A model generated the notes under the pieces. That model was not told the origin of the DNA and made no database searches. It was given only the letters and a program-made list of their open reading frames with translations. Positions 2,983 to 61,895 of a stretch of DNA of 64,000 nucleotides are shown one piece after another (the stretch's first letter is position 1; every line of letters begins with the position of its first letter). Both the position numbers and the translations under genes were made by a program. This DNA comes from Phycisphaeraceae bacterium D3-23 (GTDB lineage: Bacteria > Planctomycetota > Phycisphaerae > Phycisphaerales > Phycisphaeraceae): NCBI GenBank assembly GCA_039555135.1, contig CP114179.1, positions 2,046,001 through 2,110,000 of the forward strand, written 5' to 3'.

Positions 2983-3002
2983 CGGTTTCTGTCCTCGCGG
3001 GG

Positions 3003-5290: not shown

Positions 5291-5773
5291 GGGCGATCCC
5301 CCCGAACACGGGGGCGTGGAAACGAGTAGGGGTTCCGTCCTTTATTGTCACAGCGGGCCGATGTTTGCACGGTTTTCAGAGAGATTCAAAAAAAACAAGC
5401 CTGGCGCGAGCTCAGAGGCGTACTTCCGCATCCCTGCGGTGCCCGTCGGCCTGGTGGGCGGACTGGCCGGGACTCTCTACGGTTTCGGATTGTCGCTAGC
5501 GCGATGTGAGTTTGCGGCCGCGCGAAGCGGGGCGAGATGTAGTGCAGGCGGTGGCTATAGGGCGCTTGCAGGGTGCGTGGGCTCAGGGAGGGGAGGGGGA
5601 TGTGCGCTGTGCAGTGAGCGATTTCGCGCTTGAGTTGGGGGGTTTCGCAAGGGGTGCTTACGACTGCCTGCTGAAGCGGGCAGTCCCGAGAAAGCAGGGG
5701 CCGGGCGGGGTTTGCCGATAGGATGGTAACGGGTTGAGGATCGGTATTGCGTTCCACGGAAGGACAGCGGGCT
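5291..5773. other. intergenic region between divergent sigma-factor and dacB genes
   Basis: About 480 bases separating two divergently transcribed genes, so it must hold both promoters. No convincing gene is present: open frames here lack ribosome sites and protein-like composition. A small hairpin (arms 5664-5671 and 5676-5683, TGAA loop) lies about 90 bases before dacB. No clear -35/-10 pair could be assigned. Confidence 0.4.
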
Positions 5774-7285: not shown

Positions 7286-7760
7286 GTGCACGCATCGTCC
7301 TCGCCCGACCACGCCCAGCCACATCGGCGGAGGCCGTGCCGGGAGCGTTCTGGCATCGCGCCGACCCCCGAGCCGACAGTTCACAAGTAATAAACCGACT
7401 GTGCACGCGTCGTGCTGAGCGTGCAGCCACTAGGAATTGCTCCTTAGGTTGCCCACTTTGCCATCTTGGGGATGACCCGCACTTTTTCGGTTTTTCCCCT
7501 TGACACAGGCATGTCCATCGGGTTCAATGTATGAGAGTCGCGTTTGGGGCATTCTTCGGGATGACCCGCGCAAGAAAAGAAGGAGCGGGTCTTCGGACCC
7601 AGACAAAAGGTACTCGAACAATCGTCCACTCTTTCGGCTGGTGTATTCAACCAGTCGTGTCCCGAAGCGTGTCGCTTCAAAACTTACCGCTGAGTCGTGG
7701 GGACGGCTTTGCGGAATAATCTAAAATTTTCCCCATTTTTCCCTAACAGGAGCAGAGGAC
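7286..7760 (+). promoter_or_regulatory. intergenic region with candidate promoter and alternative hairpins ahead of a PEP-CTERM gene
   Basis: 475 bases without a supported gene. TTGACA at 7500-7505, a 17-base spacer and TTCAAT at 7523-7528 make a plausible housekeeping promoter reading toward the PEP-CTERM gene. Downstream, GGGTC-TTCG-GACCC (7587-7600) is a perfect 5-bp UUCG tetraloop hairpin. The segment GCGGGTC (7585-7591) could instead pair with GACCCGC at 7563-7569, which is part of a 12-base direct repeat GGGATGACCCGC found at 7469-7480 and 7558-7569. The two pairings exclude each other, as in attenuators. The last 40 bases before the RBS are T/C-rich and AT-rich. Function is inferred from structure only. 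Confidence 0.35.
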
Positions 7761-8351
7761 ATGAAGCTTTCCCTCACCACCCGTCTCAGCAAGTATGGCG
7801 CCTTGGCAGTTGCCGGTGCCGCCGCAACCGCAGGCGTTCAGACCGCTGATGCGGCCATCGTCTACAGCGGTGTGCAGAACATCGCCGTGCCCGCCGACTT
7901 CACGGGCGTGTACATCGACCTCGACGGTCTGGCGTTCAACACCACCGGCGGCAACGCTGCCAGCGACTACAACATCTGGTTCACCGGCGGTGGCTGGGAC
8001 ACGTTCCACCCCAACGGAACCACGACCCACGAAGCATCTGACGCTGTCAATGTTGATGTCCTCGCCGCAGGTGCCGCCGTCACGGGTGGCACCAGCCTGA
8101 ACCAGGACGAACTCGACCTCTTTGACTCGTCCCTCGGTGGCCCTGGCAGCGGCTTCATCGGCTTCAACAACGCCGGCAACCTGGGCTGGATCCAGCTCGC
8201 CAACGTCGATGCCTCCGCAGGCACGTTGACCGTCGTCGACTGGGCCTTCGAAGATTCGGGCGGCGCCATCAACGCCGGCCAGGTCCCCGAGCCCGGCTCG
8301 CTCGCACTGCTCGGCCTCGGTGGCCTCGCGCTGCTCCGTCGCCGCCGCTAA
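7761..8351 (+). CDS. PEP-CTERM protein
   Basis: 196 residues with GGAG upstream of the ATG. The N-terminus is an unusually long Ala/Gly-rich export signal containing KYGALAVAGAAAT. The C-terminus is a clean PEP-CTERM signal: VPEPGSLALL, a Leu/Gly-rich helix, RRRR. The middle (about 35-170) is small-residue-rich and probably all beta, with no catalytic motif and no cysteine. It is a paralogue of the protein at 13333-14004, sharing the KYxxxAxAGAAAT segment, the SGxQNI...D.DG motif and the TVVxWxxEDxGxxI segment before the PEP motif. Exosortase-dependent export is likely; the role is unknown, perhaps matrix or surface. A strong terminator follows. Confidence 0.8.
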   Translation: MKLSLTTRLSKYGALAVAGAAATAGVQTADAAIVYSGVQNIAVPADFTGVYIDLDGLAFNTTGGNAASDYNIWFTGGGWDTFHPNGTTTHEASDAVNVDVLAAGAAVTGGTSLNQDELDLFDSSLGGPGSGFIGFNNAGNLGWIQLANVDASAGTLTVVDWAFEDSGGAINAGQVPEPGSLALLGLGGLALLRRRR

Positions 8352-8438
8352 TCGCGGATGAATCACGCAGTAGACCGCCCTACGGGCAGCTCTACTGGCC
8401 CTACACGAAAGTGTGAGGCACAATACAGTTGAAACGAG

Positions 8439-8467
8439 AGGCCCGGCTAACACCGGGCCTTTCTTTT
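8439..8467 (+). terminator. Rho-independent terminator
   Basis: An 8-bp perfect stem (AGGCCCGG / CCGGGCCT) with a 6-base loop, followed by TTCTTTT. It ends the transcript of the PEP-CTERM gene at 7761-8351 and lies just before the phosphodiesterase gene. Confidence 0.9.
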
Positions 8468-8490
8468 ACCCCGACTCGATCTCCGACCCA

Positions 8491-10569
8491 ATGGCCGATA
8501 GACCTGTCAGCAGACCTGCCATCGCCCTAAGCCACACACGCACTGACGGAGCCCCTGCCTTGACCGACACCCCAAGCAAAAAGCTCGTCTTCCTGGGATG
8601 GGACGCGGCCGACTGGCAGCTGATGCGCCCGCTCATCGAGCAGGGCCGGATGCCCAACCTCAAGCGCGTGATGGACGCAGGGGCGTGGGGCAACCTCTCG
8701 ACGCTCGACCCGATCCTCTCGCCGATGCTATGGAACTCGATCGCGACGGGCAAACGGCCCCAGAAACACAACATCCTCGGGTTCATCGAGCCCAAGCCCG
8801 ACGGCTCGGGCGTCCGGCCGGTGTCGAGCACCTCGCGCACGGCCCGTGCGTTTTGGAACATCTTCCACCACGCCGGACTCCGCGGGCACGTGCTCAACTG
8901 GTTCGCCTCGCACCCGGCCGAGCCGATCAACGGCGCGGTGGTCACCAACATCTACGCCGCGCTCAAGGCCGATGGCGATAAGCTCGCCCCCCTGCCCCCC
9001 CATACCGTGTCACCCGAGACGCTCGCGGGCGACCTCTCCGGGGTCCGGGTCGGACCCACAAAGCTACGTCAGGAGGTGCTGCGGCGCTTCGTCGCCCCGG
9101 ACGTCCAACTCAAGCCCAAGCGCGATGCGCACAAGCTGGGGCACCTCTCCAAGATGGTCGCGGAGATGGCCTCGGTGCAGGCCGGGTACATGCATCTGCT
9201 CCGACATGAACCCTGGGACTACGCCGCAGTCTACTTCGGCGCCGTCGACCACTTCTGCCACCACTTCATCGAGTTCATGCCGCCCCAGATGCCCGACGTC
9301 GCCCGGCACGACATGCTCAACTTCCGAGAGGTCGTCAACGAGTGCTACGTCTACCATGACAAGATGCTCGCCGAGACGCTCAAGGAGGCCGGCGACGACG
9401 CGCTGCTGATGATCTGCTCCGACCACGGATTCCTCAACGGCCAACTCCGACCCACCAAAGAAGTCGACCCCGCCGCCTGGCACCGCTTCCACGGGATGGT
9501 CCTGCTGCATGGCCCGGGGATCGCAAAGAATGAAGAACTCATCGGCGCCACCCTCCTTGATATCACACCCACTCTGCTTACCCTCATGGGGCTGCCGGTC
9601 GGAGAGGATATGGACGGCAAGGTGCTCGAGCAGGCGTTCGAGACCCCGCCGACCATCGAGCGCATCCCGAGTTGGGAAGACGTCGAGGGCGACTTCGGCG
9701 AACACCCCGCGGACATGAAGGAAGACGCGTTCGAGGCGCAGGAGTCGCTGCGTCAACTCGTTGAGCTGGGGTACATCGATGCGCCCGACGGGGATGTCGA
9801 GGCGCAGATCGAGATCGCCCGGCGTGAGCAGCAGGTCAACCTCGCGGCGGCGTACCAGTTTGCCGGCCAGCTGGACGAGGCGGAACAGATCTGGGACGGC
9901 ATCCTGAAGGACTACCCCGACGAAGCGCGGTTTCTGCTAAAGGCGGCCGAGCTCAATATGTCACGTCGGCAATTCGACAAGGCCGAGACGCTGCTCGCGC
10001 ATTGCGAGGCTACGCACGGCCCGATGCCGCAGGTCTGCCTGTACCGGTCGCACATCGCGATCGCGACCGGCGACCTCGACGCGGCGGACCAGCAACTGGC
10101 CAAAGCCCAGCAGCTCGGCGACCAATCGTTGATGGTGCATATGAAGGTCGGCGAGGTCCACCGCAAGCGGCGCGACTACCCCCGGGCGTTGGCGGCGTAC
10201 GGCAGGATGCTCAAGCTCGACCCCGACACCCCGTTGGGCCACGCCGGACGCGCCGAGGTCCTGCTCAAGATGAAAGACTACGAGGAGGCCGCCGAGGCCG
10301 CGCTGACCGCAACCGAGCGGCTGTTCTTCCTCCCCCCCGCCCACCTGACACTTGGGCTGGCGATCGCCCGGCTCGGCGAGATCGAGCAAGCCATCCAGTG
10401 CGTCGAGGTCGCCGCGCGGCAGTCCCCCAGCTGGATCAGCCCGCACCGGCTGCTCGTCCGGCTGTACAAAATGGCCGGCAAAGATGAAGACGCCCAGGAA
10501 CAGCGCGACCTCCTGAAAACGCTATACGAACAATTGGCCCAGCAACAACCGGCCCAGAACCCGGCCTGA
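8491..10569 (+). CDS. alkaline-phosphatase-superfamily phosphodiesterase with C-terminal TPR repeats
   Basis: About 692 residues from ATG 8491. A TTG at 8560 has a better ribosome site (GGAG 8 bases upstream) and would start at the conserved core, like the paralogue at 11173-13224. The N-terminal 430 residues form a type I phosphodiesterase / nucleotide pyrophosphatase-like domain: FLGWDAADWQL metal site, SPMLWNSIATGKRPQKH nucleophile region, FGAVDHFCHHF, and SDHGF followed by RFHGM. Residues about 450-690 are TPR-like helical repeats. No signal peptide is visible, so a cytoplasmic location is likely. The sulfotransferase-like gene follows within 11 bases. The substrate is unknown; phospho- or sulfo-modified glycans or lipids are possible. 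Confidence 0.85.
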   Translation: MADRPVSRPAIALSHTRTDGAPALTDTPSKKLVFLGWDAADWQLMRPLIEQGRMPNLKRVMDAGAWGNLSTLDPILSPMLWNSIATGKRPQKHNILGFIEPKPDGSGVRPVSSTSRTARAFWNIFHHAGLRGHVLNWFASHPAEPINGAVVTNIYAALKADGDKLAPLPPHTVSPETLAGDLSGVRVGPTKLRQEVLRRFVAPDVQLKPKRDAHKLGHLSKMVAEMASVQAGYMHLLRHEPWDYAAVYFGAVDHFCHHFIEFMPPQMPDVARHDMLNFREVVNECYVYHDKMLAETLKEAGDDALLMICSDHGFLNGQLRPTKEVDPAAWHRFHGMVLLHGPGIAKNEELIGATLLDITPTLLTLMGLPVGEDMDGKVLEQAFETPPTIERIPSWEDVEGDFGEHPADMKEDAFEAQESLRQLVELGYIDAPDGDVEAQIEIARREQQVNLAAAYQFAGQLDEAEQIWDGILKDYPDEARFLLKAAELNMSRRQFDKAETLLAHCEATHGPMPQVCLYRSHIAIATGDLDAADQQLAKAQQLGDQSLMVHMKVGEVHRKRRDYPRALAAYGRMLKLDPDTPLGHAGRAEVLLKMKDYEEAAEAALTATERLFFLPPAHLTLGLAIARLGEIEQAIQCVEVAARQSPSWISPHRLLVRLYKMAGKDEDAQEQRDLLKTLYEQLAQQQPAQNPA

Positions 10570-10579
10570 GAACCGATCC

Positions 10580-11158
10580 ATGACCTCCAAAGACTTTATC
10601 ACCGTCGTCTCGGGGCTCCCGCGCTCGGGCACCTCCATGATGATGCAGGCCCTCGACGCCGGCGGCATCCCCCCACTCACGGACGGCGAGCGCGCCGCCG
10701 ACGACGACAACCCACGCGGCTACTACGAGCTCGAATGCGTCAAGCAGATCCGAAAAGACGACACGTTCCTCGATGCGGCACAAGGCAAAGCGGTGAAGCT
10801 CATCCACCTGCTGGTGGCCCGGCTGCCCGCGCGGCACGAAGCGCGCGTCGTCTTCATGCGCCGCGACATCGACGAGGTCTTAGCGTCGCAGTCGAAGATG
10901 CTCGAGCGCTCGGGCAAGCAGGGCGGCGCGGTGAAGCCCGAGGTCTTGAAAGGCATCTTCACCAAGCAACTCAACGAGACGCTGGGCTGGCTCGCCGCGC
11001 AGCCGAACATCCAGGTGATCGAGGTCGGCTTCGGCGAAATGTTTGGCGACCCGGTCGCGGAGATGGGGAAGGTCGATGCGTTCCTGGGCGGCGGGCTCGA
11101 TGTCGCCGCGATGGCCAGCGCAGTGGACCCGACGCTCTATCGCAACAAGTCGTCGTAG
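10580..11158 (+). CDS. sulfotransferase-like P-loop protein
   Basis: 192 residues. The N-terminal ITVVSGLPRSGTSMMMQAL matches the 5'-phosphosulfate-binding loop of sulfotransferases; a later ARVVFMRRDIDEVLASQ segment resembles the 3'-phosphate-binding strand and helix (R..D...AS). It is shorter than most full sulfotransferases (about 250-300 residues), so it may be a minimal member. It begins 11 bases after the phosphodiesterase-TPR gene on the same strand and converges with a second phosphodiesterase-TPR gene, implying a shared process. PAPS-dependent sulfation is the likely chemistry; a nucleoside kinase-like role cannot be excluded. Confidence 0.7.
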   Translation: MTSKDFITVVSGLPRSGTSMMMQALDAGGIPPLTDGERAADDDNPRGYYELECVKQIRKDDTFLDAAQGKAVKLIHLLVARLPARHEARVVFMRRDIDEVLASQSKMLERSGKQGGAVKPEVLKGIFTKQLNETLGWLAAQPNIQVIEVGFGEMFGDPVAEMGKVDAFLGGGLDVAAMASAVDPTLYRNKSS

Positions 11159-11172
11159 CCGAAGCATGGTCT

Positions 11173-13224
11173 CTATTCACGCTCGGCGGCGCGTTGCCGG
11201 CGTTGTTCGATCGCTTCGCCGATCGCGCGGAGCTGTCCGCGGTGGTAGTCGGCGAGGGGCTCGCTGCCGGCCAGGTGGTGGAGCCGCACGAGCAGGCGGT
11301 GGGCCGGGCGGAACTGGGGCCGCAGCGCGAGCGCGGTGTTGGCGGCGGCGATGGCCTCGGTGACGTGGCTTAGCCGGGCCAGCGCAAGCGCCAGCATCAG
11401 GTGCCCCCCGAGCAGGTGGTGCCGCAGCCCGACCGCGCTGAGCGCGTGGTCGACGGCCTGCTCATACTGACGCAGCCGCATCGCGACCCGTGCCAACCCG
11501 TAGTACGCCACGGGTTCGTTGGGGTCGATCTCCAATACCCGGTGAAACACGCGCTCGGCCTGCACATAGTCACGCTGGCCGGTGTGGGCGATCCCAACCC
11601 TCAGAAGCAACTTCGGGCTGTTGGGCGCTAAGTCCTCCGCAGTACGGAACTGTGCCATCGCCTCGGCGTAGCGGTGCTCGGCATAAAGCACCTGCGCCAG
11701 TTGCAGGTGCAGCTGCGGCGCGGGCGGCAGCTTGGTGCCCTCGGCCTCGGCCTGCGCACGGGCGGCGAAGGCCGCGTCCAGGTGCTCGCGCGCCAGCGAC
11801 GGGTCGCCGGCCTCGAGCGCGTGCTCCGCGATCGCCGCGCGGTACTTCGCTTGGTCCGGGTACTGCCGGGCCAGCTCCTCAAGCAGCGACAACGACTCGC
11901 CAAACTTCATCGCGTCGGCCAGCGCCATCGCCAGGTTGAACTTCAGCTCGCGCACCGCCAGCGCTACCGTGTCTTCCACCTTCTCGGGCATCGCATCGAC
12001 GTAGCCCAGGTCAACCATCTGCTGGATCGCCTCGGCTGCGGCGACCGGATCGACCCGCAACGCCTGGGTGTGTTCCCCGAAGCCGCCTTCGAGGTCGTCC
12101 CAGCTCGGGATCGTGCCCGTATCGGGCGGCGCATCGAACGCCGCGGCGAGGAGTTTGCCGTCCATGTCTTCGCCGACGGGCAGGCCCAGGACGCTGAGCA
12201 TCGTGGGGCAAAGGTCGAGGATCGAAGCGCCGTAGAGTTGTTCGCCGCGACGGATGCCGGGGCCTTTCATCACGACCATGCCGTGGAACCGGTGCCAGAC
12301 TGCGGGGCCCTGGGGTCCGTCGGGGATCGCCGCGGGCCGGAGGTGGTCGTTGAGGAATCCGTGGTCGGAGCAGATGATGACGGTGGTGTCGTCGTTGCAG
12401 AAGTCGAGCGCGCGGCCGAGCATCATGTCCTGGAGCTGGTACACGCCGTCGACGGTGTCTTTGAACGCTTCATAGAGCAGCGGGTCGATCTGCGGCAGCT
12501 TCGGCGGGCGGTGGTACATGAACGAGTGGCAGAAGTGGTCGATCGCGTCGAAGTAGATAAACGACGCGTCCCAGGGCTCCTGCTCCAAGACGGCGGTCGC
12601 GACCGACTGCACGGTCGCCATCTCGGCGAGCAGGCGGGCGAGCGCGGCGAGCCCCTTCGCGAGGTTCTCGTCCTCGACCTTCTGTCCCGCAAGCGACGGG
12701 ACAAAGGGTGACAGGTCGCTGTGCTGCAGATCGTCGGCGTGGATACGCAACTTGCCCAGGGGCTCGGCCAACGCGGCGGGGTGGATCGCGTGGTCGGGGA
12801 CATGCCACTTCTTGTCGCTCGGGCAGCCGCGCTGCAGCAGGTTGCTGACACAGACGCCGTGGATCGGCTCGGCGGGGTGGCTCGCGAACCAGCCGACGGT
12901 GTTGCTGTGCATGCCTCGGTGGGTGAGTATGTTCCAGATCGCGCGGGTCGTGCGCGAGGTCGAGGTGACGGGGCGGACGCCTGTACGGTCGGGCAGCGGC
13001 TCGATGAAGCCGTGGATGCCGTGCTTGTGCGGCCGCTTGCCTGTGGCGATTGTGGTCCACAGCATCGGCGAGAGCATCGGCTGTAACGACGCGAGATTGC
13101 CGCGCACGCCGCCCTCGATCAGCCCCGCAAGGTGGGGCATCTTGCCCTGCTCGAGCAGCGGGTCGATGACCTGCCAGTCCGCGGCGTCCCACCCGATCAT
13201 CAGCAGTTTGCGTGAACCCTGCAT
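11173..13224 (-). CDS. alkaline-phosphatase-superfamily phosphodiesterase with C-terminal TPR repeats (paralogue)
   Basis: 683 residues, strongly similar throughout to the protein at 8491-10569: LLMIGWDAADWQVIDPLLEQ, LSPMLWTTIATGKRPHKHG, FASHPAEPI, YFDAIDHFCHSF and ICSDHGFLNDHLRP all have direct counterparts. The phosphatase-type domain fills residues 1-400 and TPR-like repeats run from about 430 to 670. It is convergent with the sulfotransferase-like gene (14-base gap). The retained metal-site residues suggest both copies are active. A sequence divergence typical of old duplicates suggests different substrates. There is no signal peptide. Confidence 0.85.
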   Translation of the reverse strand: MQGSRKLLMIGWDAADWQVIDPLLEQGKMPHLAGLIEGGVRGNLASLQPMLSPMLWTTIATGKRPHKHGIHGFIEPLPDRTGVRPVTSTSRTTRAIWNILTHRGMHSNTVGWFASHPAEPIHGVCVSNLLQRGCPSDKKWHVPDHAIHPAALAEPLGKLRIHADDLQHSDLSPFVPSLAGQKVEDENLAKGLAALARLLAEMATVQSVATAVLEQEPWDASFIYFDAIDHFCHSFMYHRPPKLPQIDPLLYEAFKDTVDGVYQLQDMMLGRALDFCNDDTTVIICSDHGFLNDHLRPAAIPDGPQGPAVWHRFHGMVVMKGPGIRRGEQLYGASILDLCPTMLSVLGLPVGEDMDGKLLAAAFDAPPDTGTIPSWDDLEGGFGEHTQALRVDPVAAAEAIQQMVDLGYVDAMPEKVEDTVALAVRELKFNLAMALADAMKFGESLSLLEELARQYPDQAKYRAAIAEHALEAGDPSLAREHLDAAFAARAQAEAEGTKLPPAPQLHLQLAQVLYAEHRYAEAMAQFRTAEDLAPNSPKLLLRVGIAHTGQRDYVQAERVFHRVLEIDPNEPVAYYGLARVAMRLRQYEQAVDHALSAVGLRHHLLGGHLMLALALARLSHVTEAIAAANTALALRPQFRPAHRLLVRLHHLAGSEPLADYHRGQLRAIGEAIEQRRQRAAERE

Positions 13225-52380: not shown

Positions 52381-53847
52381 TTAGAAGTGGATCATCCGCC
52401 CGTCGGTGCCCAGGGCGGCTTCGTGGACGGCTTCGCTGAGGGTGGGGTGGGCGTGCATGGTGGCGATGATTTCTTCGGCCGTCGCTTCGAGCCGGCGCGC
52501 CAGGCCCATCTCGGCGATGAGTTCGGTGACGTTTTCGCCGACCATGTGGCAGCCGAGGATCTCGCCGTGCTTGGCGTCTTTGATGATCTTGACGAACCCG
52601 GCGGTCTCGCCGAGGGCCTGGGCTTTGCCGGAGGCCTGGAAGGGGAACGAGCCGACTTCGTAATCGAGCCCGTCGTCTTTGCACTGCTGTTCGGTGAGAC
52701 CGATGGAGGCGACCTGGGGGTGGCAGTAGGTGCAGCCCGGGACGGAGGCGTAGTCGATATCGGGGACATCGTGCCCATCTTCCGGGGGGAACATGCGTTC
52801 GACGGCGACGATGGCTTCTTCGCTGGCGACGTGGGCGAGCCATGGCGGGCCGATGACATCGCCGACGGCGTAGATGCCTTTGACGCTGGTGGCGTAGTCG
52901 CTGCCTTCTGCGCGGTAGTCGACTTTGATGTGGTCTTTGAAGAGTTCGACGCCGAGAGAGTCGTCGAACAGCCCGTCGTACCGGCCCCGGACGCCGATGG
53001 CGACGAGGACTTTGTCGGCTTCGATCGTCTCGGGTTTGTCGTCGCTGTCCACCTTGCCGATCTGTGCCTTGATGCCTTTTTTGGTGACCTCGATCGATTT
53101 GGTGATGTGGCCGGTCAAAATCTTGATGCCCTGTTTTTTGAAGGCCTTCTGCACCTGCTTGGAGCTGTCGGCGTCTTCGATAGGCATGACGCGGTCGAGC
53201 ATCTCGACGACGGTGCATTCGGTGCCAAAGGCGTTGTAGAAGTAGGCGAACTCCATGCCGATCGCGCCGCTGCCGACGATGAGGAGTTTCTTGGGCTGGT
53301 CCTTGAGCGACATCGCTTCCTTCGCGGCGATGACCTTGTCGCCGTCGAAGGGCGTGCCCGGCAGCTCACGCGGCACCGCGCCCGTGGCGATCAAAATCTT
53401 CTCGGCGGTGAGCTCCTGCTTGATGCCGCCCTTGTGTTCGGTGTCATTTTTATCGAAGACCTGGACCTTGCCGGCGGCGGGGATAAACGCGTGGCCGTCG
53501 AAGTGGGTGATCTTGTTTTTCTTAAAGAGGAAGCCGATGCCTTTGGAGAGGTTGCCGGCGACGCCGCGTGAGCGGGCGATGACTTTTTCCCAGTTGTGGC
53601 CGACGTTTTCGGCGTTGATGCCCCAGTCGTCGGCGTCGTGTCGGAGCTTGCTGTAGAACTCGGCGCCGGCGAGCAGGGCCTTGGTCGGGATGCAGCCCCA
53701 GTTGAGGCAGACGCCGCCGAGCGCATCGCGTTCGACACAGGCGACAGACTTGCCGAGCTGCGCCGCGCGGATCGCGCCGACGTAGCCCGCCGGGCCGCCG
53801 CCGATGACGATGAGGTCGAAGTGGGTCTTGGATTGCTTGTCGGCCAT
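52381..53847 (-). CDS. lpd: dihydrolipoyl dehydrogenase
   Basis: 488 residues. FAD-binding GGGPAGYVGAIRAAQLG, redox-active Cys47 and Cys52 in GGVCLNWGCIPTKAL, an NAD-binding GSGAIGMEFAYFYNAFGTEC, and the dimer-interface MHAHPTLSEAVHEAALGTDG with catalytic His and Glu near the end all match the E3 component. It reoxidizes dihydrolipoamide in pyruvate or 2-oxoglutarate dehydrogenase or the glycine cleavage system. It is not next to other complex genes, so which complex it serves is open. Length is slightly above the E. coli enzyme (474 residues). Confidence 0.95.
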   Translation of the reverse strand: MADKQSKTHFDLIVIGGGPAGYVGAIRAAQLGKSVACVERDALGGVCLNWGCIPTKALLAGAEFYSKLRHDADDWGINAENVGHNWEKVIARSRGVAGNLSKGIGFLFKKNKITHFDGHAFIPAAGKVQVFDKNDTEHKGGIKQELTAEKILIATGAVPRELPGTPFDGDKVIAAKEAMSLKDQPKKLLIVGSGAIGMEFAYFYNAFGTECTVVEMLDRVMPIEDADSSKQVQKAFKKQGIKILTGHITKSIEVTKKGIKAQIGKVDSDDKPETIEADKVLVAIGVRGRYDGLFDDSLGVELFKDHIKVDYRAEGSDYATSVKGIYAVGDVIGPPWLAHVASEEAIVAVERMFPPEDGHDVPDIDYASVPGCTYCHPQVASIGLTEQQCKDDGLDYEVGSFPFQASGKAQALGETAGFVKIIKDAKHGEILGCHMVGENVTELIAEMGLARRLEATAEEIIATMHAHPTLSEAVHEAALGTDGRMIHF

Positions 53848-54088
53848 CGTTTGAGTCCTGCGTGCTTGGAAAAGTGGAACGCGGGATTGTAGTCGATGGG
53901 GCAGTGTCCGGGCCGGCCGTGTGAGTATCGTGCGAATCCCGGCACGCCGTCCTTGGTCGGCGTAGGCCAGCGCGTTATACTCATGCCCGAGCGCGGTCGC
54001 GTTCGACTTGCGTACGTCATGCCGCTGGGCCGGTCGGCGAAGGCGAGAGACTTTTTATTCTGGTTCCGTTTACACAAGGAGTATTTCG

Positions 54089-54883
54089 ATGAAGCTTTTG
54101 GTTGCAATGTTGGCGATGGGTGTGCTCAGTTCGGGTGCGGCGGTCGGCACGGCGTTTGCGTGCGATGGCGACGAGGGCGTGCCCGAGACCACGGTGGTGG
54201 TGGCGACCGAGGCGGCTGGGGAGTGCGGCGGCTGTGACAGTACTGTCGAGGTGGTCGAGAAGGCCGGCGATTGCGGGGGCTGCGATAGCGCGACCGAAGT
54301 TGTGGTCGCCGAGGGCGACTGCGAAGGTTGTGACAGCGCGACCGAGGTTGTTGTTGCCGAGGGTGACTGCGAAGGTTGCGACAGCGCGACCGAGGTTGTT
54401 GTTGCCGAGGGCGACTGCGAAGGTTGCGACAGCGCGACCGAGGTTGTTGTTGCCGAGGGCGACTGCGAAGGTTGTGACAGCGCGACCGAGGTTGTTGTTG
54501 CCGAGGGCGACTGCGAAGGTTGTGACAGCGCGACCGAGGCAGTTGTTGCCGAAGGTGGCTGCGAGGGTTGCGAGACGGAATGTGATACGTGCGAGGTGAT
54601 GACTGCTTTGGAGGGCGTTGAACTGAGCGACCACGGCAAGGCCGTCCTCGCGTTGGGCCAGGCCGGCGTGCCCGTATGGATCGACGACGCGGGCTTCGGG
54701 ATGGTCGATGGCAAGAAGGTCGCCTGCCCCGTGGCGTTCTCGCGTGCGGCGACTCAGTTCATTGCAACGATGGGTGCCGAGGCCGGCTGCGAGGTCTGCC
54801 AGGACGTGCTGGCGACCGCGGACAGCGAAGCGTCGGTCGAAGAAACTGCCGCGAAGCAGGCCCCGGTCGATGCCGGGGAGTAA
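54089..54883 (+). CDS. exported CxxC tandem-repeat protein
   Basis: 264 residues from ATG 54089 with GGAG 8 bases upstream. Signal peptide at residues 1-24 (ends GTAFA). Residues about 45-156 are seven 16-residue repeats with the core DCEGCDSATEVVVAEG, plus a partial eighth; each has one CxxC. Two more CxxC pairs follow (CDTC, CEVC), for ten in all. The C-terminal 100 residues are a separate domain (GKAVLALGQAGVPVWIDDAG, FSRAATQFIATMGAEAGCEV). The repeats are acidic, so metal binding (zinc, copper or iron) or redox chemistry in the periplasm is plausible. No family recognised. A strong terminator follows. Confidence 0.7.
   Translation: MKLLVAMLAMGVLSSGAAVGTAFACDGDEGVPETTVVVATEAAGECGGCDSTVEVVEKAGDCGGCDSATEVVVAEGDCEGCDSATEVVVAEGDCEGCDSATEVVVAEGDCEGCDSATEVVVAEGDCEGCDSATEVVVAEGDCEGCDSATEAVVAEGGCEGCETECDTCEVMTALEGVELSDHGKAVLALGQAGVPVWIDDAGFGMVDGKKVACPVAFSRAATQFIATMGAEAGCEVCQDVLATADSEASVEETAAKQAPVDAGE
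54221..54556 (+). repeat. tandem 48-bp coding repeats
   Basis: Seven tandem 48-bp units (54221-54556), each one 16-residue CxxC repeat, plus a partial eighth. The middle five (54317-54556) are almost identical at the DNA level while the first two are diverged, suggesting recent expansion by replication slippage or recombination. Confidence 0.9.
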
Positions 54884-54922
54884 GCCGACACGCGGCGGGA
54901 TGCCGCTGATTTTGTTTTGATT

Positions 54923-54956
54923 CAAGGGCATGCCCGCGCGGCATGCCCTTGTTTTA
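54923..54956 (+). terminator. Rho-independent terminator
   Basis: A 12-bp perfect stem (54923-54934 with 54940-54951; AAGGGCATGCC arms) and a 5-base loop, followed by TTTTA. It ends the CxxC repeat gene transcript. Confidence 0.85.
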
Positions 54957-54982
54957 TAGGGACGTCGAGGCCGAGGATGTTT

Positions 54983-55173
54983 GGATGCTTAGACGCGGCC
55001 CAGTTGATTCGCGCGCGCTTCTTCCGGGGTGCCACACAACTGCCCGTAGGGCTGCTGTGTGCGACAACCCGTTGCCATTTTTTGTCCCGGCACACAGCAG
55101 GCCTGCGGACAGGCCAGTTGTGTGGCACCCAGGATCGCGTGTTCTTTCTGGGATGCGTATTAGACGCGGCCAG
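54983..55173. repeat. inverted-repeat element C2 with flanking direct repeats (intergenic)
   Basis: The intergenic stretch 54884-55205 holds no gene. Its core is C2 (55028-55130): outer arms GGGTGCCACACAACTG and CAGTTGTGTGGCACCC, a perfect 16-bp inverted repeat, plus inner GCTGTGTGC / GCACACAGC pairing. It is flanked by near-identical direct repeats, GGATGCTTAGACGCGGCC at 54983-55000 and GGATGCGTATTAGACGCGGC at 55151-55170, which could be a duplicated target site or a remnant of rearrangement. It ends about 75 bases from the GGDEF stop. Confidence 0.75.
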
Positions 55174-55205
55174 TGGTGGCGTCTGGTGCCGCGCGGCAGG
55201 CGTAG

Positions 55206-56210
55206 CTACTTTGCGACGGTCCGGCCCTTGCCCGCGCGTTTCGCGGCGTAGAGGCGTTGGTCGGCGAGCTTGAGCATGGACTCGCCGTTGTCGCAGGGGT
55301 CGGCGTTGATCGACGCGACGCCGATGGAGAGGTCGGTGTAGGGCCCTTGGGGCAGGGTCGCGCGGGTCTGCTGTTTGAAGAGCGAGCGGATGGAGTCGGC
55401 GACGGCGATCGCGCGGTCGGTGTCGCACCCGGGCATGAGGATGATGAACTCGTCCCCGCCGACGCGGATGCACAAGTCGTCGTGCCGGGTGCAGGCCTTG
55501 AGCAGCCCGGCGAGCAGGACGAGCAACTCGTCGCCCGCGTCGTGGCCGCGCGTGTCGTTGACCTGCTTGAAGCCGTCGAGGTCGATGGCGACGGCGGTGA
55601 GGTCACTGCCGGCCGTGTCGGTGGCATCGACGATGCGCGGGAGCTGCTGGTCGAGGAACCGTCGGTTGCCCAGGTCGGTCAGCGGGTCGCGAAGCGTCAG
55701 GCGTTTGAGCTCGACGGTGGCCTGCTGGGTGGCCTTCTGGACGCGAAGGTCGAGGGTCTTGCGCAGCTGTCGCGCATCGCGGCCGTCGCGGATCGCGATC
55801 GTGGTGACGCGGTGCATCGCGCGGGCGATCCGGCCCGCCTCGTCGCGGCGGGTCAGTGGGAGCGACGAGAGGTCGTCCATCTTGCGGCGCTCGGCGACGC
55901 GGTCGATCTGCTCAACTAATCGGTCGTAGGGCGAGGCGATCCACCACTGGCCCAGCATGATGAGGACCGATGCGGACAACAGAAAACCCAGCACACCAAA
56001 CAACGCGGCGGGGATTTCACGGTTCGCGATCGTGAGTTGTCCGAGGTAGTCGGCGGCGAGGTCGACGCCGATGCCGACCATGACGCCGGCGATGACCATG
56101 AGCGCGACCTTCGAGCGCAGCGGCGCGTCGTCCAGCCGGTGCGGCCGGGGGCGCACGCCCTCCGACGGCTCATGCGACAGCGATTCATCTTGTGCCCTGG
56201 CTTGATCCAT
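55206..56210 (-). CDS. GGDEF domain protein (putative diguanylate cyclase)
   Basis: 334 residues from ATG 56210 with AAGGAAGAG upstream; a longer frame runs into repeat D2. Two membrane helices at about 30-50 and 62-84. The HAMP-like and helical region (about 85-165) leads to the GGDEF domain (about 170-330) with the active-site RVGGDEFIIL motif intact and, five residues before it, RHDD, which fits an allosteric inhibitory (RxxD) site. It should make cyclic di-GMP in response to an envelope signal. No EAL domain is present. Confidence 0.9.
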   Translation of the reverse strand: MDQARAQDESLSHEPSEGVRPRPHRLDDAPLRSKVALMVIAGVMVGIGVDLAADYLGQLTIANREIPAALFGVLGFLLSASVLIMLGQWWIASPYDRLVEQIDRVAERRKMDDLSSLPLTRRDEAGRIARAMHRVTTIAIRDGRDARQLRKTLDLRVQKATQQATVELKRLTLRDPLTDLGNRRFLDQQLPRIVDATDTAGSDLTAVAIDLDGFKQVNDTRGHDAGDELLVLLAGLLKACTRHDDLCIRVGGDEFIILMPGCDTDRAIAVADSIRSLFKQQTRATLPQGPYTDLSIGVASINADPCDNGESMLKLADQRLYAAKRAGKGRTVAK

Positions 56211-56380
56211 CTCTTCCTTCACCCAGACCCCTTGCGGGGATTCGCCTCTCGTCGGCCAAAACAAACGGCCGGCCCGTTGAGAAGCTTGCGGTTCAAGGAC
56301 GCCGGGGGCCAAGGGAACATACACCCCGTTTTGTGAAGGCGGTGGGGTTGTAGCGGTGGTGCGGGTTGTATCGGCAAGGT

Positions 56381-56459
56381 TGAGACCACCGATGCACACC
56401 GAACAACACCGATCGATGCAGTACCTATCTGTGTGAATCCGTGTGCATCGGTGGTCTCA
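56381..56459. repeat. inverted repeat, family D copy D2
   Basis: Arms 56381-56402 and 56438-56459 are a 22-bp inverted repeat with one mismatch, core ACCACCGATGCACACCGA. The right arm contains the stop codon of the YmdB-type gene (56457-56459, TGA read on the minus strand). Related to D1. Confidence 0.85.
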
Positions 56460-57317
56460 TTGGCTGGGGATGGTCACCGATTCAACACCCACCGCCAACC
56501 CGCTCGCGGGGTCGACTTCGACGATGACACCGCGGGCCGTGCCTTGACCCTCGGCAACGTCGAAGGCGGCGGGCAGACTGGTGGTCATGTGTTTGACGAC
56601 GCGGTCGGCGCGGCGGCCGAGGACCGAGTCGTACGGGCCGGTCATGCCGAGGTCGGTGATGTAGGCGGTGCGTCCGATGCCGAGCCAGGGCTTGCCGGGG
56701 ATGGATTCGTCGTCCTGCGGGGTGGGCAGGAGGCGGGCGTCGGCGGTGGGGATGTGCGTGTGCGTGCCGAAGACGCAGGCGGCCCGGCCGTTCAAGTGCC
56801 AGCCCATCGCGACTTTTTCGCTGGTCGCCTCGGCGTGGATCTCGGCGATGACGATCGCGTTTGGGTCTTTGGATTTGAGGTCGCTGACGACGCGGTCGGC
56901 GGCGGCGTAGGGGTCGCTGCCTCGCATGGTGCTCATGAAGAGCTGGCCGATGAGGGTGACGACGTGGACGCGGTGGGTCCTGCCGTCGTCGTCGGTTGCG
57001 TCGAGTGTCATGACACCCCTGCCGCGCGCTTTGGCGGGCAGGTTGACCGGGCGGATGATGTTGGGCTCGGCGTCGAGGGTGGGGTAGATCTGCTGCTTGC
57101 GGAAGGCGTGGTCGCCGAGCGTGAAGCCGTCGATGCCGGCGGCGCAGAGCTTGCGGTAGAGCTCGGGCGTGAGCCCGCTGCCGTTGGCGGCGTTCTCGGC
57201 GTTGGCGAGGACGAGGTGGACGCCGTGCTGCTCGCGGAGGTCGGGCACGGCCGCGGCGGCGGCCTGCCTTCCCGGGACGCCGACGATGTCGCCGAGGATC
57301 GCGATCTTGAGGGTCAT
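56457..57317 (-). CDS. YmdB-type (TIGR00282) metallophosphoesterase
   Basis: 286 residues from ATG 57317. Motifs: KIAILGDIVGVPGRQ, ANAENAANGSG, TLGDHAFRKQQIY, IAEIHAEATSEKVAMGWHLN and GTHTHIPTADARLLP, matching the YmdB family with its dinuclear metal site. YmdB from Bacillus hydrolyses cyclic nucleotide-type substrates and affects biofilm switching. The stop codon lies within repeat D2. No SD is visible. A family A repeat follows its start on the upstream side. Confidence 0.9.
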   Translation of the reverse strand: MTLKIAILGDIVGVPGRQAAAAAVPDLREQHGVHLVLANAENAANGSGLTPELYRKLCAAGIDGFTLGDHAFRKQQIYPTLDAEPNIIRPVNLPAKARGRGVMTLDATDDDGRTHRVHVVTLIGQLFMSTMRGSDPYAAADRVVSDLKSKDPNAIVIAEIHAEATSEKVAMGWHLNGRAACVFGTHTHIPTADARLLPTPQDDESIPGKPWLGIGRTAYITDLGMTGPYDSVLGRRADRVVKHMTTSLPAAFDVAEGQGTARGVIVEVDPASGLAVGVESVTIPSQ

Positions 57318-57354
57318 GCGCGACAGGGTAGGGGATTGGCACGGTGGTTGCCCT

Positions 57355-57405
57355 TCGAAGCCCACGGATTTCATCCGTGGGGCACCCAGCCATGCAATGG
57401 CGGGG
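57355..57405. repeat. dispersed double-hairpin repeat, family A, copy A4
   Basis: CCCACGGAT-TTC-ATCCGTGGG (57361-57381) followed by a degenerate second hairpin. It lies between the divergent starts of the YmdB-type gene and nrdR, so here it is in a promoter-containing region rather than at a 3' end. Confidence 0.8.
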
Positions 57406-57481
57406 CATTGGGCAGGCGCAGTCTGCGCTTCCCTGCTATCTTTCCCCAAGTCCAAATCCCCAACGCCCAGCCCCCACCCCC

Positions 57482-57976
57482 ATGCGCTGCCCCTTCTGCG
57501 ATGTTGATGATGACAAGGTGATCGACTCCCGCGCGACCGACGGGGGCCGATCGATCCGTCGTCGGCGACAGTGCCTGGCGTGCGAGAAACGCTTCACGAC
57601 CTACGAAAAGGTCGAGGAGAAGGTCTCGCTGCTCGTCGTCAAGAAGGACGGCAGCCGGGTCCCCTACCAGCGCGACAAGGTCGTCAAAGGCATCGGGTCG
57701 GCCGCGTACAAACGCCCGATCTCGGCGCAGACGCTGACAACCCTGGCCGACGAGATCGAGGAGACGCTTTACCGGCAGGGCGAGAAGGAGGTGTCGTCCA
57801 AAGACATCGGCCTGCTGGTGCTCGAGAAGCTGCGCGCGACCGACCACGTCGCGTATATGCGTTTTGCGAGTGTGTATATGGATGTCGAAAAGGTCGACGA
57901 CCTGCTCGACGAGATGCAGCAGGTCAAGGAAGACGAAGAAGCCCGCCCGCCCCGGGACCAGGGCAAGCTGTTTTAG
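57482..57976 (+). CDS. nrdR: transcriptional repressor NrdR
   Basis: 164 residues, standard length. The N-terminal zinc ribbon has Cys3, Cys6, Cys31 and Cys34 (MRCPFC and QCLAC). The ATP-cone domain (about 46-136) has VVKKDGSRVPYQRDKVVKGI and ISAQTLTTLADEIEETLYRQ, and the end RATDHVAYMRFASVYMDVE is conserved. It represses ribonucleotide reductase genes when dATP is bound. No nrd genes are nearby, and the C-terminal acidic tail (EDEEARPPRDQ) is extra. The ATG lacks an obvious SD. Confidence 0.95.
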   Translation: MRCPFCDVDDDKVIDSRATDGGRSIRRRRQCLACEKRFTTYEKVEEKVSLLVVKKDGSRVPYQRDKVVKGIGSAAYKRPISAQTLTTLADEIEETLYRQGEKEVSSKDIGLLVLEKLRATDHVAYMRFASVYMDVEKVDDLLDEMQQVKEDEEARPPRDQGKLF

Positions 57977-57987
57977 GGCGGGTATTT

Positions 57988-58122
57988 AACGCCAAGAAGC
58001 CAAGGGGTGGGAGAGAGAGCCAAGCGGGGATTGGGTTGATGGCGTTGCGGGTTTGGACAGGTTTTTGCATTCATTGTTTTTTCTTGCTTGGCTTGCTTGG
58101 TCATCCTTGGCTTCTTGGCGTT
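57988..58122. repeat. inverted repeat, family E copy E1
   Basis: Arms AACGCCAAGAAGCCAAGG (57988-58005) and its exact reverse complement (58105-58122), 18 bp perfect. It starts 12 bases after the nrdR stop and ends 37 bases before the DUF389 gene. A half-copy is at 52246-52262. Confidence 0.85.
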
Positions 58123-58158
58123 GAAAATTGTATTGAAGTAACCCGCTAAGCTGTGCGG

Positions 58159-60093
58159 ATGTCTGTCGCTGTGGTGGTCGAGACCGAGTCGGAGGTGCCT
58201 GCGCTGCTGGGTTGGGCGTGGCAGGTCGCGCGGGCGCGGCGGTCGGATGTGAAGGTGCTGTTTGCCGGCGGGCGCGACGCGACGGAGCAAGACCCGCCGG
58301 CCGTTGCGGTGAAGTCGGCGGTGAGCGACTTGGTCGATACGCACGCCCGGCTCAGCGCGACGCAGGCGGAGTCCGAGGCGCAAACGGGAACCGGCACGAA
58401 GCCGACCGACCCCGAGCGATGCCCGCAGTTTGAGTTGGTGGTGCTCAAGCAGCAGGACCCCGCGGCGGCGGTGCTGGAAGCGCTCCAGGAGCACGGCGTC
58501 AAGCTGCTGATCGTCGCCAAGCACCGCATCGACCGCACGAAAGACTCGCTGCCCGCGATCCTGTTCCGCGAGGCGCGCTGCATGGTGCTGCTGCTACGCC
58601 CGGGCAATACGGATGGCCAGCGGTGTCGGCGGATCCTCGTGCCCACGTCCGGCGGGCCGCATGCGACCGAGGCGCTCAGGCTCGCGGACGTGTTGGCGGC
58701 GCTGCCGGATACGAGCTGCTCGATCGACCAGCAGCAGCCCGGCGGAGTCGATGCGCTCTATGTCGAGCCCAACGTCGGGCCCGAGGCCGAGGCCGTGGGC
58801 GCGAAGCTGGCCGACAAGGCGATCCGCAAAGCGCTGGGCGACCCGGCCGGTCACCCGCTGGTGTCGGCTCAGGTGCGCATTGCAAAAGACTTCCGCGAAG
58901 GGATCGCTCTCGCGGCCGAGGGCGGCGCGTACGACCTGGTCCTGCTCGGTGCGACCAACCACTGGCACGCGCGGCGGGCGCTGTTTGGCTCGGTGCCCGA
59001 CAAGCTGCTGTCGGACGCGTCGAGCGGGCTGACGGTGGGCGTGGTGCGGCAGCAAGTGCCGTTTGTCGAGGCGGCGACCCAGGCCCTTCGGCTCTTCCTC
59101 GAACGCATCGTCCCGCAACTCGAGCGCGAGGACCGCATCGCGCTGGTCGAGCGGGTGCAGGGGGCCAGCCGGTGGAACTTCGATTTCGTGGCCTTGATCT
59201 GCCTATCGACGCTGATCGCGACGCTCGGGCTGATGCAGAACTCGGTCGCGGTGGTGATCGGCGCGATGCTCGTTGCGCCGCTGATGACGCCGCTGGTCGG
59301 CTGCGGGCTGTCGGTCGTGCAGGGCAACGGCCGGCTCATCCGCGAGGCGATCCACGCGGTGGTGCTGGGCTTTTTGCTCGCGTTCTCGATCGCGGTGGCG
59401 ATGGGGTACCTCATCCCCCACGCCGGGCTCACGCCGCAGATGCTCGCGCGCGGCCAACCGAATATGCTCGACCTCGGCGTCGCGTTCGTCTCGGGCATGG
59501 CCGCCGCCTACGCCACCGCCCGGCCCAACCTGTCGGGCGCGCTGCCCGGCGTCGCGATCGCCGCCGCGCTCGTCCCACCGATCTCCACCTCAGGCGTCGC
59601 GCTCGCGCACGGCGACTACATCACCAGCGCTGGCGCATCCCTGCTGTTCGTCACCAACATCGTCGCGATTGTTCTGGGCGCAGCGATCTCGCTCTACGCC
59701 GTGGGCATGCAGCCCGCGCACTTGCACACGAGCAAGAAGCGCTGGACCCGGCACGCCGCGATGTCGCTCATCATGGGGGTCGTCCTGCTGAGTGTCCCGC
59801 TGGGTTACTGGCTGTACGACTCGCTGCCGCGCTATCAGGTGCCGGAGACGCTGCGCGAGCGGATCGCCGAGCGGGTTGAGCAGGAGCCCGGCGCGAGTTT
59901 TGAAAGCATGGAGACGCGGGGTGTCGTGGACGATGAACTGCAGGTCGAGTTCGTGATCCAGTCCCCACAGGCATCGGGCCGTGCGCTGGTCGATGACCTC
60001 GACGCGATCGCCGAGGATTACTTCGGGCGCAACTGCCATGTGCGCGTGGTGACGCATTTGGTAAAGGAGAGTGGGGGGAATGAAAATGAGTGA
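58159..60093 (+). CDS. DUF389 membrane protein with universal-stress-like N-terminal half
   Basis: 644 residues from ATG 58159; a GTG two codons upstream is possible. The N-terminal 310 residues resemble two UspA-like nucleotide-binding domains (VAVVVETESEVPALLGWAWQ, RRILVPTSGGPHATEALRLA, and YDLVLLGATNHWHARRALFG). From about 340 it is the DUF389/TIGR00341 membrane core, with about 6-7 helices: FDFVALICLSTLIATLGLMQ, VVIGAMLVAPLMTPLVG and GVAIAAALVPPISTSGVAL. The last 100 residues are soluble. DUF389 proteins are uncharacterised transport-like proteins; the stress-domain fusion hints at regulation by nucleotide. Confidence 0.85.
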   Translation: MSVAVVVETESEVPALLGWAWQVARARRSDVKVLFAGGRDATEQDPPAVAVKSAVSDLVDTHARLSATQAESEAQTGTGTKPTDPERCPQFELVVLKQQDPAAAVLEALQEHGVKLLIVAKHRIDRTKDSLPAILFREARCMVLLLRPGNTDGQRCRRILVPTSGGPHATEALRLADVLAALPDTSCSIDQQQPGGVDALYVEPNVGPEAEAVGAKLADKAIRKALGDPAGHPLVSAQVRIAKDFREGIALAAEGGAYDLVLLGATNHWHARRALFGSVPDKLLSDASSGLTVGVVRQQVPFVEAATQALRLFLERIVPQLEREDRIALVERVQGASRWNFDFVALICLSTLIATLGLMQNSVAVVIGAMLVAPLMTPLVGCGLSVVQGNGRLIREAIHAVVLGFLLAFSIAVAMGYLIPHAGLTPQMLARGQPNMLDLGVAFVSGMAAAYATARPNLSGALPGVAIAAALVPPISTSGVALAHGDYITSAGASLLFVTNIVAIVLGAAISLYAVGMQPAHLHTSKKRWTRHAAMSLIMGVVLLSVPLGYWLYDSLPRYQVPETLRERIAERVEQEPGASFESMETRGVVDDELQVEFVIQSPQASGRALVDDLDAIAEDYFGRNCHVRVVTHLVKESGGNENE

Positions 60094-60688
60094 GTATCTC
60101 CCGCCTCTTGTAAGGGATGGTCGGCGGGTTACGCCTTGCTGCTTCTTTCTGAAAACTCGGGGTGAGCTAACAGAAACAGCACTGCTCAGCGAGTTGGGCC
60201 TAACGGACTTCAAATCCGAACAAAACCGTGCTCAGTTCGATGAGTACATCGTGTTGGCAGATGATGGTGAGTGGATCCATCTATCGGATGATTGGTTCTA
60301 TACGCTCTGGCATGACACGACAATGCTGAGGCGTTTTAGAGCTATGGGGCGACGATACGATCTCTTTGCTTTTTCGATAGGCGATACGGATTGTTCGTTT
60401 GATTTGGAGTATTGGGCTCTGGGTGATATCCAGCGACGCTTCGTATGGGACGAATCTGTATCTGAAACTGGCAAAGTGACTTGTGATGTTGGTCAGGCAT
60501 TCCCAAAGGAGCAACAGATCATTCACGGCAAGGAGCCTAAGGATGCGCTATGGGACATAGCAAGTTCACTTGGAATCCAAACAGACTATGAATCGCTAGA
60601 GATGCTGGTTTACACTCGGCCTCACCTCAGAAACCGAAAAGATGCCGGGAAAGGCATCTGTGGTGGCACGCGACCAGGGCCAACGTGA
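60080..60688 (+). CDS. hypothetical protein, low-GC orphan
   Basis: 202 residues, no family recognised. AGGAG lies 10 bases upstream of the ATG at 60080 within the DUF389 gene's end, so it overlaps that gene by 14 bases. By eye the DNA is clearly lower in GC and its codon use differs from the surrounding genes. The protein is mixed alpha/beta and aromatic-rich (DDWFYTLWHDTTMLRRF, DLFAFSIGDTDCSFDLEYWA). It resembles the other orphan at 30119-30757 only in composition and size. Probably a horizontally acquired gene; possibly an immunity-type protein. Confidence 0.55.
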   Translation: MKMSEYLPPLVRDGRRVTPCCFFLKTRGELTETALLSELGLTDFKSEQNRAQFDEYIVLADDGEWIHLSDDWFYTLWHDTTMLRRFRAMGRRYDLFAFSIGDTDCSFDLEYWALGDIQRRFVWDESVSETGKVTCDVGQAFPKEQQIIHGKEPKDALWDIASSLGIQTDYESLEMLVYTRPHLRNRKDAGKGICGGTRPGPT

Positions 60689-60695
60689 CGTTGTC

Positions 60696-61799
60696 CTACC
60701 CAATCGCCTTGATCACCATGTCCCCGATCGCGCTGGTCGTGTACCCGCTGCGGTCCAGGCGTTTGCCGGTGAAGTTCGGGGTCACGGCTTGCACCGCCTG
60801 CGCAACCTTGTCGCCCGCGTCGATAAGCTTCGCTCGGCCCTTCGCCCGGCCGGTCTCGCGCAGGAGCATCGCCAGCGAGTCGATCGCGGCGAGCGGGTTG
60901 GCCTTGCCCTGGCCCGCGATGTCGGGCGAGCTGCCGTGGACGGGCTCGAACATGCTCACGCTGCCCGCTGCGGGGTCGGGGTTCAGGTTGCCCGACGCGG
61001 CGATGCCCATGCCGCCGGCGATCGCGGCGCCCAAGTCCGTGATGATGTCGCCAAACATATTGGGCACGACGATCGTGTCGTAGACTTCGGGCCTGGTCGC
61101 CATGTACATGCAGCACGCATCGACGTGGTGGTAGTCGGTCTCGATGTCGGGGTACTCGGCCGCGATTTCGCGGAAGGCCTCCATCCACGTCGCGCCGCAG
61201 TGCGTGAGCACATTCGTCTTATGCACGAGTGTGAGGTGTCCGCGGTAGCCCTGCCGCTTACGGCTTAGCGCCGTCTCAAACGCGAATCGCACGCAACGTT
61301 CGACGCCGTACCGCGTCGCGATCATCTCCTGGGTGCTGACCTCGTGCGGCGTGCCGACGCGGATGCGCCCGCCCGTCCCGCCGTAGAGCCCCTCGGTGTT
61401 CTCGCGGATGCAGACAAAGTCGATGTCTTCGGGGCCCTTGTCCTTGAGCGGCGTCTCGACGCCCGGCAGGAGTTTGACCGGCCGAAGGTTGATGTACTGG
61501 TCGAGCTGGAACCGCAGCTTGAGCAGCAGCCCCTTCTCGATCACGCCCGGCGTCACGTCCGGGTGCCCCACCGCCCCGAGGAGGACCGCGTCGAACGTGC
61601 GCAGCTCATCGACCTCGTCGTCGGTGATGACGGTGCCGGTCGCCTGGTAGTGCGCCGCGCCGTAGTCGAAGTGCGTGGTCTGGACGTCGAGCCCCTCGCC
61701 GGCGCGCGCGACGGCTTCGAGCACGCGCAGCGCCTCGGCGACGACCTCGGGCCCGGTGCCGTCGCCGCCGATCACGGCGAGGTTGAGTGGAGTAGACAA
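60696..61799 (-). CDS. leuB: 3-isopropylmalate dehydrogenase family protein
   Basis: 367 residues from a TTG start at 61799 with AAAGGA 7 bases upstream; a longer ATG frame is encoded partly by repeat F2. Motifs of beta-decarboxylating dehydrogenases: LAVIGGDGTGPEVV, VCIRENTEGLYGG, VHKTNVLTHCGATWMEAFRE, VDACCMYMATRPEVYDTIVV-type metal/substrate region and MFEPVHGSSPDIAGQGKANP. The Arg-rich substrate loop (QYINLRPVKLLPGV) fits isopropylmalate dehydrogenase. It converts 3-isopropylmalate to 2-oxoisocaproate in leucine synthesis, using NAD. No other leucine genes are beside it; isocitrate or tartrate dehydrogenase is the main alternative. Confidence 0.85.
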   Translation of the reverse strand: MSTPLNLAVIGGDGTGPEVVAEALRVLEAVARAGEGLDVQTTHFDYGAAHYQATGTVITDDEVDELRTFDAVLLGAVGHPDVTPGVIEKGLLLKLRFQLDQYINLRPVKLLPGVETPLKDKGPEDIDFVCIRENTEGLYGGTGGRIRVGTPHEVSTQEMIATRYGVERCVRFAFETALSRKRQGYRGHLTLVHKTNVLTHCGATWMEAFREIAAEYPDIETDYHHVDACCMYMATRPEVYDTIVVPNMFGDIITDLGAAIAGGMGIAASGNLNPDPAAGSVSMFEPVHGSSPDIAGQGKANPLAAIDSLAMLLRETGRAKGRAKLIDAGDKVAQAVQAVTPNFTGKRLDRSGYTTSAIGDMVIKAIG

Positions 61800-61835
61800 G
61801 ACAGTTTCCTTTGACAAAACGACGGCACAACCAGC

Positions 61836-61863
61836 GGCAGACAGGAAAGTCCGCCCCACGAGG
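61836..61863. repeat. dispersed palindromic repeat, family F, copy F2 (inverted relative to F1)
   Basis: 28 bases, reverse complement close to F1 (core GGCAGACAGGAAAGTCCGCC on this strand), between the leuB start and the metalloprotease stop. Its reverse strand reads in frame with the longer leuB frame, which is why a later TTG start was chosen. Confidence 0.7.
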
Positions 61864-61895
61864 ATCGGCAATCTTAGGGTGTTCGGTCGGCCGTG

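Follow-up and report, generated by a model that had tools for sequence, protein, structure and literature searches.

A planctomycete gene joins a variable array of CxxC units to a domain apparently related to an undescribed cysteine ribbon

The window, the 64,000-nucleotide stretch of Phycisphaeraceae bacterium D3-23 analysed here, contains a solitary gene for an acidic protein in which a tandem array of 16-residue units, each with one CxxC, precedes a C-terminal domain that, judged by profile comparison, is a degenerate relative of a cysteine-ribbon domain so far undescribed. An acidic, exported-looking array whose thiol pairs are conserved, attached to a ribbon-derived domain, points to thiolate chemistry outside the cytoplasm. 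We tentatively favor a reading, to which we give somewhat less than an even chance, in which the protein is exported and its cysteine thiolates hold soft metal ions such as Zn, Cu or Cd, with a core from the cysteine ribbon and its capacity in the N-terminal arm. The comparisons establish the array, its conservation and change in length, and the origin of the C-terminal domain; we infer that the protein is exported, that it binds metal, that it is kept reduced as binding would require, and what its role is. We place metal binding ahead of redox buffering, then a structural rod, then neutral expansion.

The gene, its repeat array and its close relatives

54089–54883, forward strand: cysteine-repeat protein gene, 264 residues, stop included (ORF call; relatives in G019 at L004 and in G016)
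54089–54160, forward strand: putative signal peptide, residues 1–24 (by eye from the sequence)
54218–54553, forward strand: seven 48-bp units, w1 to w7, each with one CxxC (unit comparison, TRF, selection analysis)
54554–54592, forward strand: partial eighth unit (CEGC) and CDTC (unit comparison)
54593–54820, forward strand: C-terminal domain, apparent degenerate cysteine-ribbon relative, with a ribbon-like core at about 54638–54748 (profile, alignment, hhalign)
54821–54880, forward strand: acidic tail, not conserved (dN/dS 1.14 against L004)
54923–54951, forward strand: terminator-like hairpin with a T run (sequence)

The open reading frame starts at an ATG with AAGGAG close upstream, and its putative signal peptide, MKLLVAMLAMGVLSSGAAVGTAFA, is followed by a cysteine. 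The protein has 22 cysteines, all in the mature part of 240 residues, where 58 D and E stand against 6 K and R (computed pI 4.05), in keeping with the acidic protein with evenly spaced CxxC of a preliminary description of this DNA. That description had also assigned ten CxxC to the repeats; the protein does have ten, of which eight lie inside the array and two, starting at residues 165 and 234, behind it. After w7 come the partial eighth unit with its CxxC, the CDTC, and the C-terminal domain with one lone cysteine and CEVC. On one side of the gene lies a dihydrolipoyl dehydrogenase gene (TIGR01350) and on the other a GGDEF-like gene.

Open reading frames on the opposite strand across the array (e.g. 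54017–54931) are attributed to the repeat. Directly behind the gene, at 55023–55134, lies a palindromic element whose arms carry the 15-mer GGTGCCACACAACTG at 55028–55042 (forward) and 55115–55129 (reverse). In its own genome this 15-mer has 68 forward and 66 reverse copies, against 0 for the reversed control, and they are often paired about 85–90 bases apart. The element resembles a REP or MITE family.

TRF reported a 48-bp array at 54266–54573 (6.4 copies, 92% matches), whose score of 490 was the highest among the 13 rows for the window. A direct count gives seven full units at residues 44–155. Units w3 to w7 share 43–48 of 48 bases, bearing out the earlier count of seven units with five nearly identical; one silent change separates each of w3, w4 and w6 from w5, and w7 differs from it by three silent changes and one other. 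The first two have drifted, w2 matching w3 to w7 at 36–40 of 48 bases and w1 matching w2 to w7 at 28–29.

The C-terminal domain was matched in three of the 51 genomes of the family: the source genome (G000), G019 (85% identity) and G016 (58%). The nearest relative, at L004 of G019 (a Phycisphaerae MAG, JAUHZU010000002.1), has five units, is flanked by the same neighbors as the window gene, and encodes a protein 32 residues, or two units, shorter. The array is thus present at the same locus with a different length in a separate assembly, and the source genome is itself a single contig. Array length varies between species, and the recent expansion and size variation proposed earlier are upheld at that level, with seven units in the window and five in L004.

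Comparison of the two arrays shows that the units are conserved as protein. Every unit of both retains its cysteine pair. Over five unit pairs dN ranged from 0 to 0.09 and dS exceeded 1 or was saturated; where changes on both sides allow computation, unit-pair dN/dS was 0.05–0.06, a figure that rests on about 11 silent sites per unit and a cross-species pairing that is partly arbitrary. Outside the units, dN/dS reached 0.146 in the C-terminal core, 0.21 in the N-terminal part and 1.14 in the tail. Because the units are short and their pairing partly arbitrary, the contrast between array and tail is the safer statement. As the amino acids of the units are conserved and the silent sites have diverged, the array is maintained by selection; it has recently been copied or homogenized with its amino acids retained.

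Within the genus, G017 (100% complete) and G018 (70%) gave no match to the C-terminal domain. The third genome of the genus with a match, G016, has the domain without an array, at a different genomic place than in the window and G019, and one unit-like stretch, DDCQSCKKSTVATAAEG, before it that may resemble the ancestor of the unit. The array itself was found in two of the 151 sampled genomes of the order. The dihydrolipoyl dehydrogenase neighbor was considered as a partner and rejected: the order is the same in G019, yet the dehydrogenase gene stands beside another gene in G016 and G017, with the cysteine gene elsewhere in the former and not found in the latter. By eye, the dehydrogenase gene of these two genomes (L080, L081) adjoins a leuB-like frame, and in the window (52381–61871) the corresponding two lie about 7 kb apart, with the cysteine-repeat gene and others between.

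A cysteine-ribbon domain of planctomycetes

No Pfam or NCBIfam model matched the window protein above its cut-off, and the best hit of a single-sequence search among PDB sequences had an E value of 0.32. To this extent the earlier statement that no known family fits still stands. It gives way for the C-terminal domain, which is no orphan and has relatives in an undescribed family. At E 0.01, a profile of three sequences from the genus matched 12 of the 392 genomes sampled from the phylum, including G000 and G019, and among these matches L007, L008, L011 and L016 are small exported-looking proteins with the pattern GKxGExVWCxxCxxGYVxGxKVxCxxC. A profile of these four, with the genus excluded, matched 29 of the 392 genomes at E 0.01; it recovered the domain at a single place in G000 (E 6.1e-7), in G019 (6.7e-6) and, in the family search, in G016 (3.9e-5), a test that is partly circular because the window's profile had picked those four.

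In a second profile, A9, seven of the nine rows come from loci outside the selection made with the window's profile. With hhalign, the window domain scored a probability of 94.8 with A9 and 95.7 with the first profile, and 200 column shuffles each gave maxima of 18.6 and 19.8 against real scores of 40.0 and 43.2, respectively. The best-matching part of the window domain has no cysteine, reading VWIDDAG where the ribbon has VWCxxCG; cysteine content is therefore not the driver of the match. The core profile matches, but the WCxxC pair is lost (VWIDDAG), and the domain keeps the final CxxC and one cysteine of the pair that precedes it (CPVA for CxxC). At the ribbon's first cysteine pair MAFFT aligns the window's CDTC across about 19 extra residues, and hhalign puts other residues. 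Since WCxxC and half of the next pair are absent, we label the domain a degenerate relative rather than a full member.

The family motif is GKxGxxVWCxxC-GYVxGK-CxxC-CxxC. The weakest of the 29 genomes, G073 and G327 (E near 0.008), are close to the limit, and the locus in G073, L049, does show the motif. By pattern we read 22 distinct ribbon ORFs from 22 genomes, plus one in G390, leaving out L030, L032, L036 and L048, which had no ORF under the pattern used. Loci L010, L012, L014 and L015 of the 12-genome search, and L017 to L020, showed no ribbon motif in the ORFs read and were taken as chance matches. Of the 22 ORFs, 17 show a lipobox-like pattern, which in at least two of them is wrongly placed. 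Some proteins have one ribbon and others two to six.

Cysteine-rich stretches, by eye unrelated to the window's, precede the ribbon at L007, L009, L011, L016, L037, L038 and L049; at L016 (1286–1470, G291) a 30-bp tandem repeat of 5.9 copies encodes a CC-rich arm (ACCKKEGAEG-like). Several lineages have placed cysteine-rich arms of unrelated sequence before a ribbon. At L029 of G390 (1459–3114, reverse strand) a multihaem cytochrome (PF13447, E 1.5e-83) carries a fused ribbon at its C-terminus, and nearby, at L067, lie another protein matching PF13447 and one with an HMA domain. An HMA-like stretch (E 6.6e-4; 20.5 bits, cut-off 24.8) closes the six-ribbon protein of L042; a similar protein, that of L047, gave no HMA match.

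Against Pfam DZR_2, ribbon relatives gave E values of 0.0062 to 2.9, short of the cut-off. PRDM9 was rejected as a solved relative, its ribbon-profile match (E 0.0052 over 17 positions; the other best, 0.34) being taken as a chance match of cysteines. One ribbon relative had no match in 72,556 plasmid records. No description of the window protein or the ribbon domain appeared in the titles and abstract openings of the matches listed from open-licence PMC literature. The search thus brings to light an undescribed, probably exported cysteine-ribbon domain of planctomycetes.

Metal binding and competing readings

In the mechanism that we tentatively prefer, the core of the protein derives from a small, probably exported cysteine-ribbon domain of many planctomycetes. 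In this genus the ribbon would have lost some of its own cysteine pairs, with thiol capacity shifting to an N-terminal arm of DCEGCDSATEVVVAEG units; 48-bp duplication would alter the number of units, as tandem modules set capacity in long fungal metallothioneins; and the thiolates of the array would take up soft metal ions outside the cytoplasm. The cysteine pairs kept in all units, whose amino acids are conserved, may be read in favor of metal binding. So may the kinship of the domain to a ribbon whose zinc-knuckle-like CxxC pairs resemble Pfam double zinc ribbons, below cut-offs, and the sub-threshold HMA-like end of the L042 protein. Other ribbon proteins apparently acquired front arms rich in cysteine but unrelated in sequence, in one case as a 30-bp tandem repeat, and these point the same way.

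Several considerations count against it. Paired cysteines outside the cytoplasm tend toward disulphide oxidation, and classical metallothioneins are richer in cysteine than the mature part of the window protein. By eye, the neighbors of the window gene include no metal-transport gene and no thioredoxin-type gene. A heavy-metal efflux link was tried and rejected: the RND pump genes near three relatives (L065, L073, L075) scored 356–413 bits to TIGR00914, whose cut-off is 701, and by that cut-off are not of the heavy-metal subfamily.

The gene neighborhoods of the ribbon family speak for redox chemistry at least equally. The comparison covered 20 neighborhoods: that of G016, and those of 19 ribbon genomes out of the 27 that remain when G000 and G019 are set aside. 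Three of them (L073, at 4472–12001, L075 and L078) contain a full-length DsbH-type thioredoxin gene; the 20 genomes have 22 copies above 200 bits, from which 0.05 would be expected (P about 2e-5, the test having been chosen once the data were known). At L078 there is in addition a thioredoxin-reductase-like gene (TIGR01292, 313 bits; cut-off 343). RND pumps occur at L065, L073 and L075, in the last two together with an ECF-type sigma factor, and a zf-HC2 protein at L072 and L073, associations that carry no computed background rate; the L073, L075 and L078 clusters are possibly an envelope thiol-stress operon. The protein might then be a thiol/disulphide buffer or relay, its CxxC pairs, a motif familiar from redox proteins, cycling outside the cytoplasm and being recharged by an exported thioredoxin-type protein, with more units giving more capacity. 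If so, the ribbon family would offer a candidate partner for DsbH-type thioredoxins. However, the ribbon proteins beside the three DsbH-type genes carry two or more ribbons, unlike the window's kind; the window gene has no such partner beside it; and the protein itself has no indicated thioredoxin fold, with no thioredoxin model in Pfam or NCBIfam matching up to E 10. We consider this account the most serious competitor, with perhaps a one-in-four prospect of being right. A haem wire or c-type cytochrome was rejected, as not one of the ten CxxC extends to CxxCH, which weakens the earlier proposal of an electron carrier for the haem c type and leaves room for other redox sites. The other two functions proposed there, a metal sponge and a thiol buffer, are still candidates.

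The units could instead make up a structural repeat fold in the cell envelope, closed by disulphides and without metal or redox turnover. AlphaFold2, run on a two-row alignment (mean pLDDT 48.7), drew the array as a beta-solenoid with block means of 65–79 over residues 61–150; it left the C-terminal domain unresolved, and a separate model of that domain (pLDDT 50) was set aside. Cysteine-rich YTV proteins are described, in part of PMC8567305, from cell-wall preparations of other planctomycetes. However, AlphaFold2 is reported to make confident false solenoids from perfect repeats (PMC11795689, in part), so the window's solenoid carries little weight and may be an artefact. A fold search of the full-length model gave 23 matches up to E 10, the best at 2.9 and none under 1, and the YTV domain had no match in the protein in Pfam up to E 10. 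On balance we regard such a rod as unlikely. Still less likely, and something of a long shot, is a true beta-solenoid of one coil per unit, which would stack the CxxC in a straight ladder of identical extracellular thiolate sites, its coil number changed by 48-bp duplication, on a ribbon protein short of some of its own cysteine pairs. Neutral expansion without a function of its own would fit an array confined to so few genomes of the order and a domain that occurs without it in G016, but is very improbable given a unit-pair dN/dS of about 0.05 between species against the higher values of core and tail.

Comparison with known systems

The planctomycete cysteine-ribbon domain shares with the window protein the GxAGxxVW...G...GK.V.C core, the final CxxC, probable export and, in some members, a cysteine-rich front arm. 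It differs in that the window domain is without WCxxC and one cysteine of the next pair and has extra residues, and the window's arm is unrelated in sequence to those of the other ribbon proteins. The YTV cell-wall proteins of Planctomycetales (PMC8567305, in part) are likewise cysteine-rich envelope proteins of the same phylum, with a domain that the window protein does not match. Double zinc ribbons (DZR_2, Zn_ribbon_6) have in common with the window's relatives CxxC pairs at ribbon-like spacing; the window protein itself matched Zn_ribbon_6 at E 0.5 (10.8 bits against 25), on the repeats and not the domain.

Pfam and NCBIfam gave no match to a metallothionein family model up to E 10. The long tandem metallothioneins of the fungi Cryptococcus and Tremella resemble the window protein in having tandem cysteine-rich modules whose number changes. 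The Tremella protein, of 257 residues, is described in part of PMC4755600 as having repeated blocks of seven cysteines with CxC and binding much copper, whereas the window protein has two cysteines per unit and no CxC, and is bacterial and probably exported. Should the arm bind metal, its unit count would be a natural capacity dial in a bacterium, as in these fungal proteins. A member of no named family among those compared, the window protein would, by analogy, work most like a tandem metallothionein.
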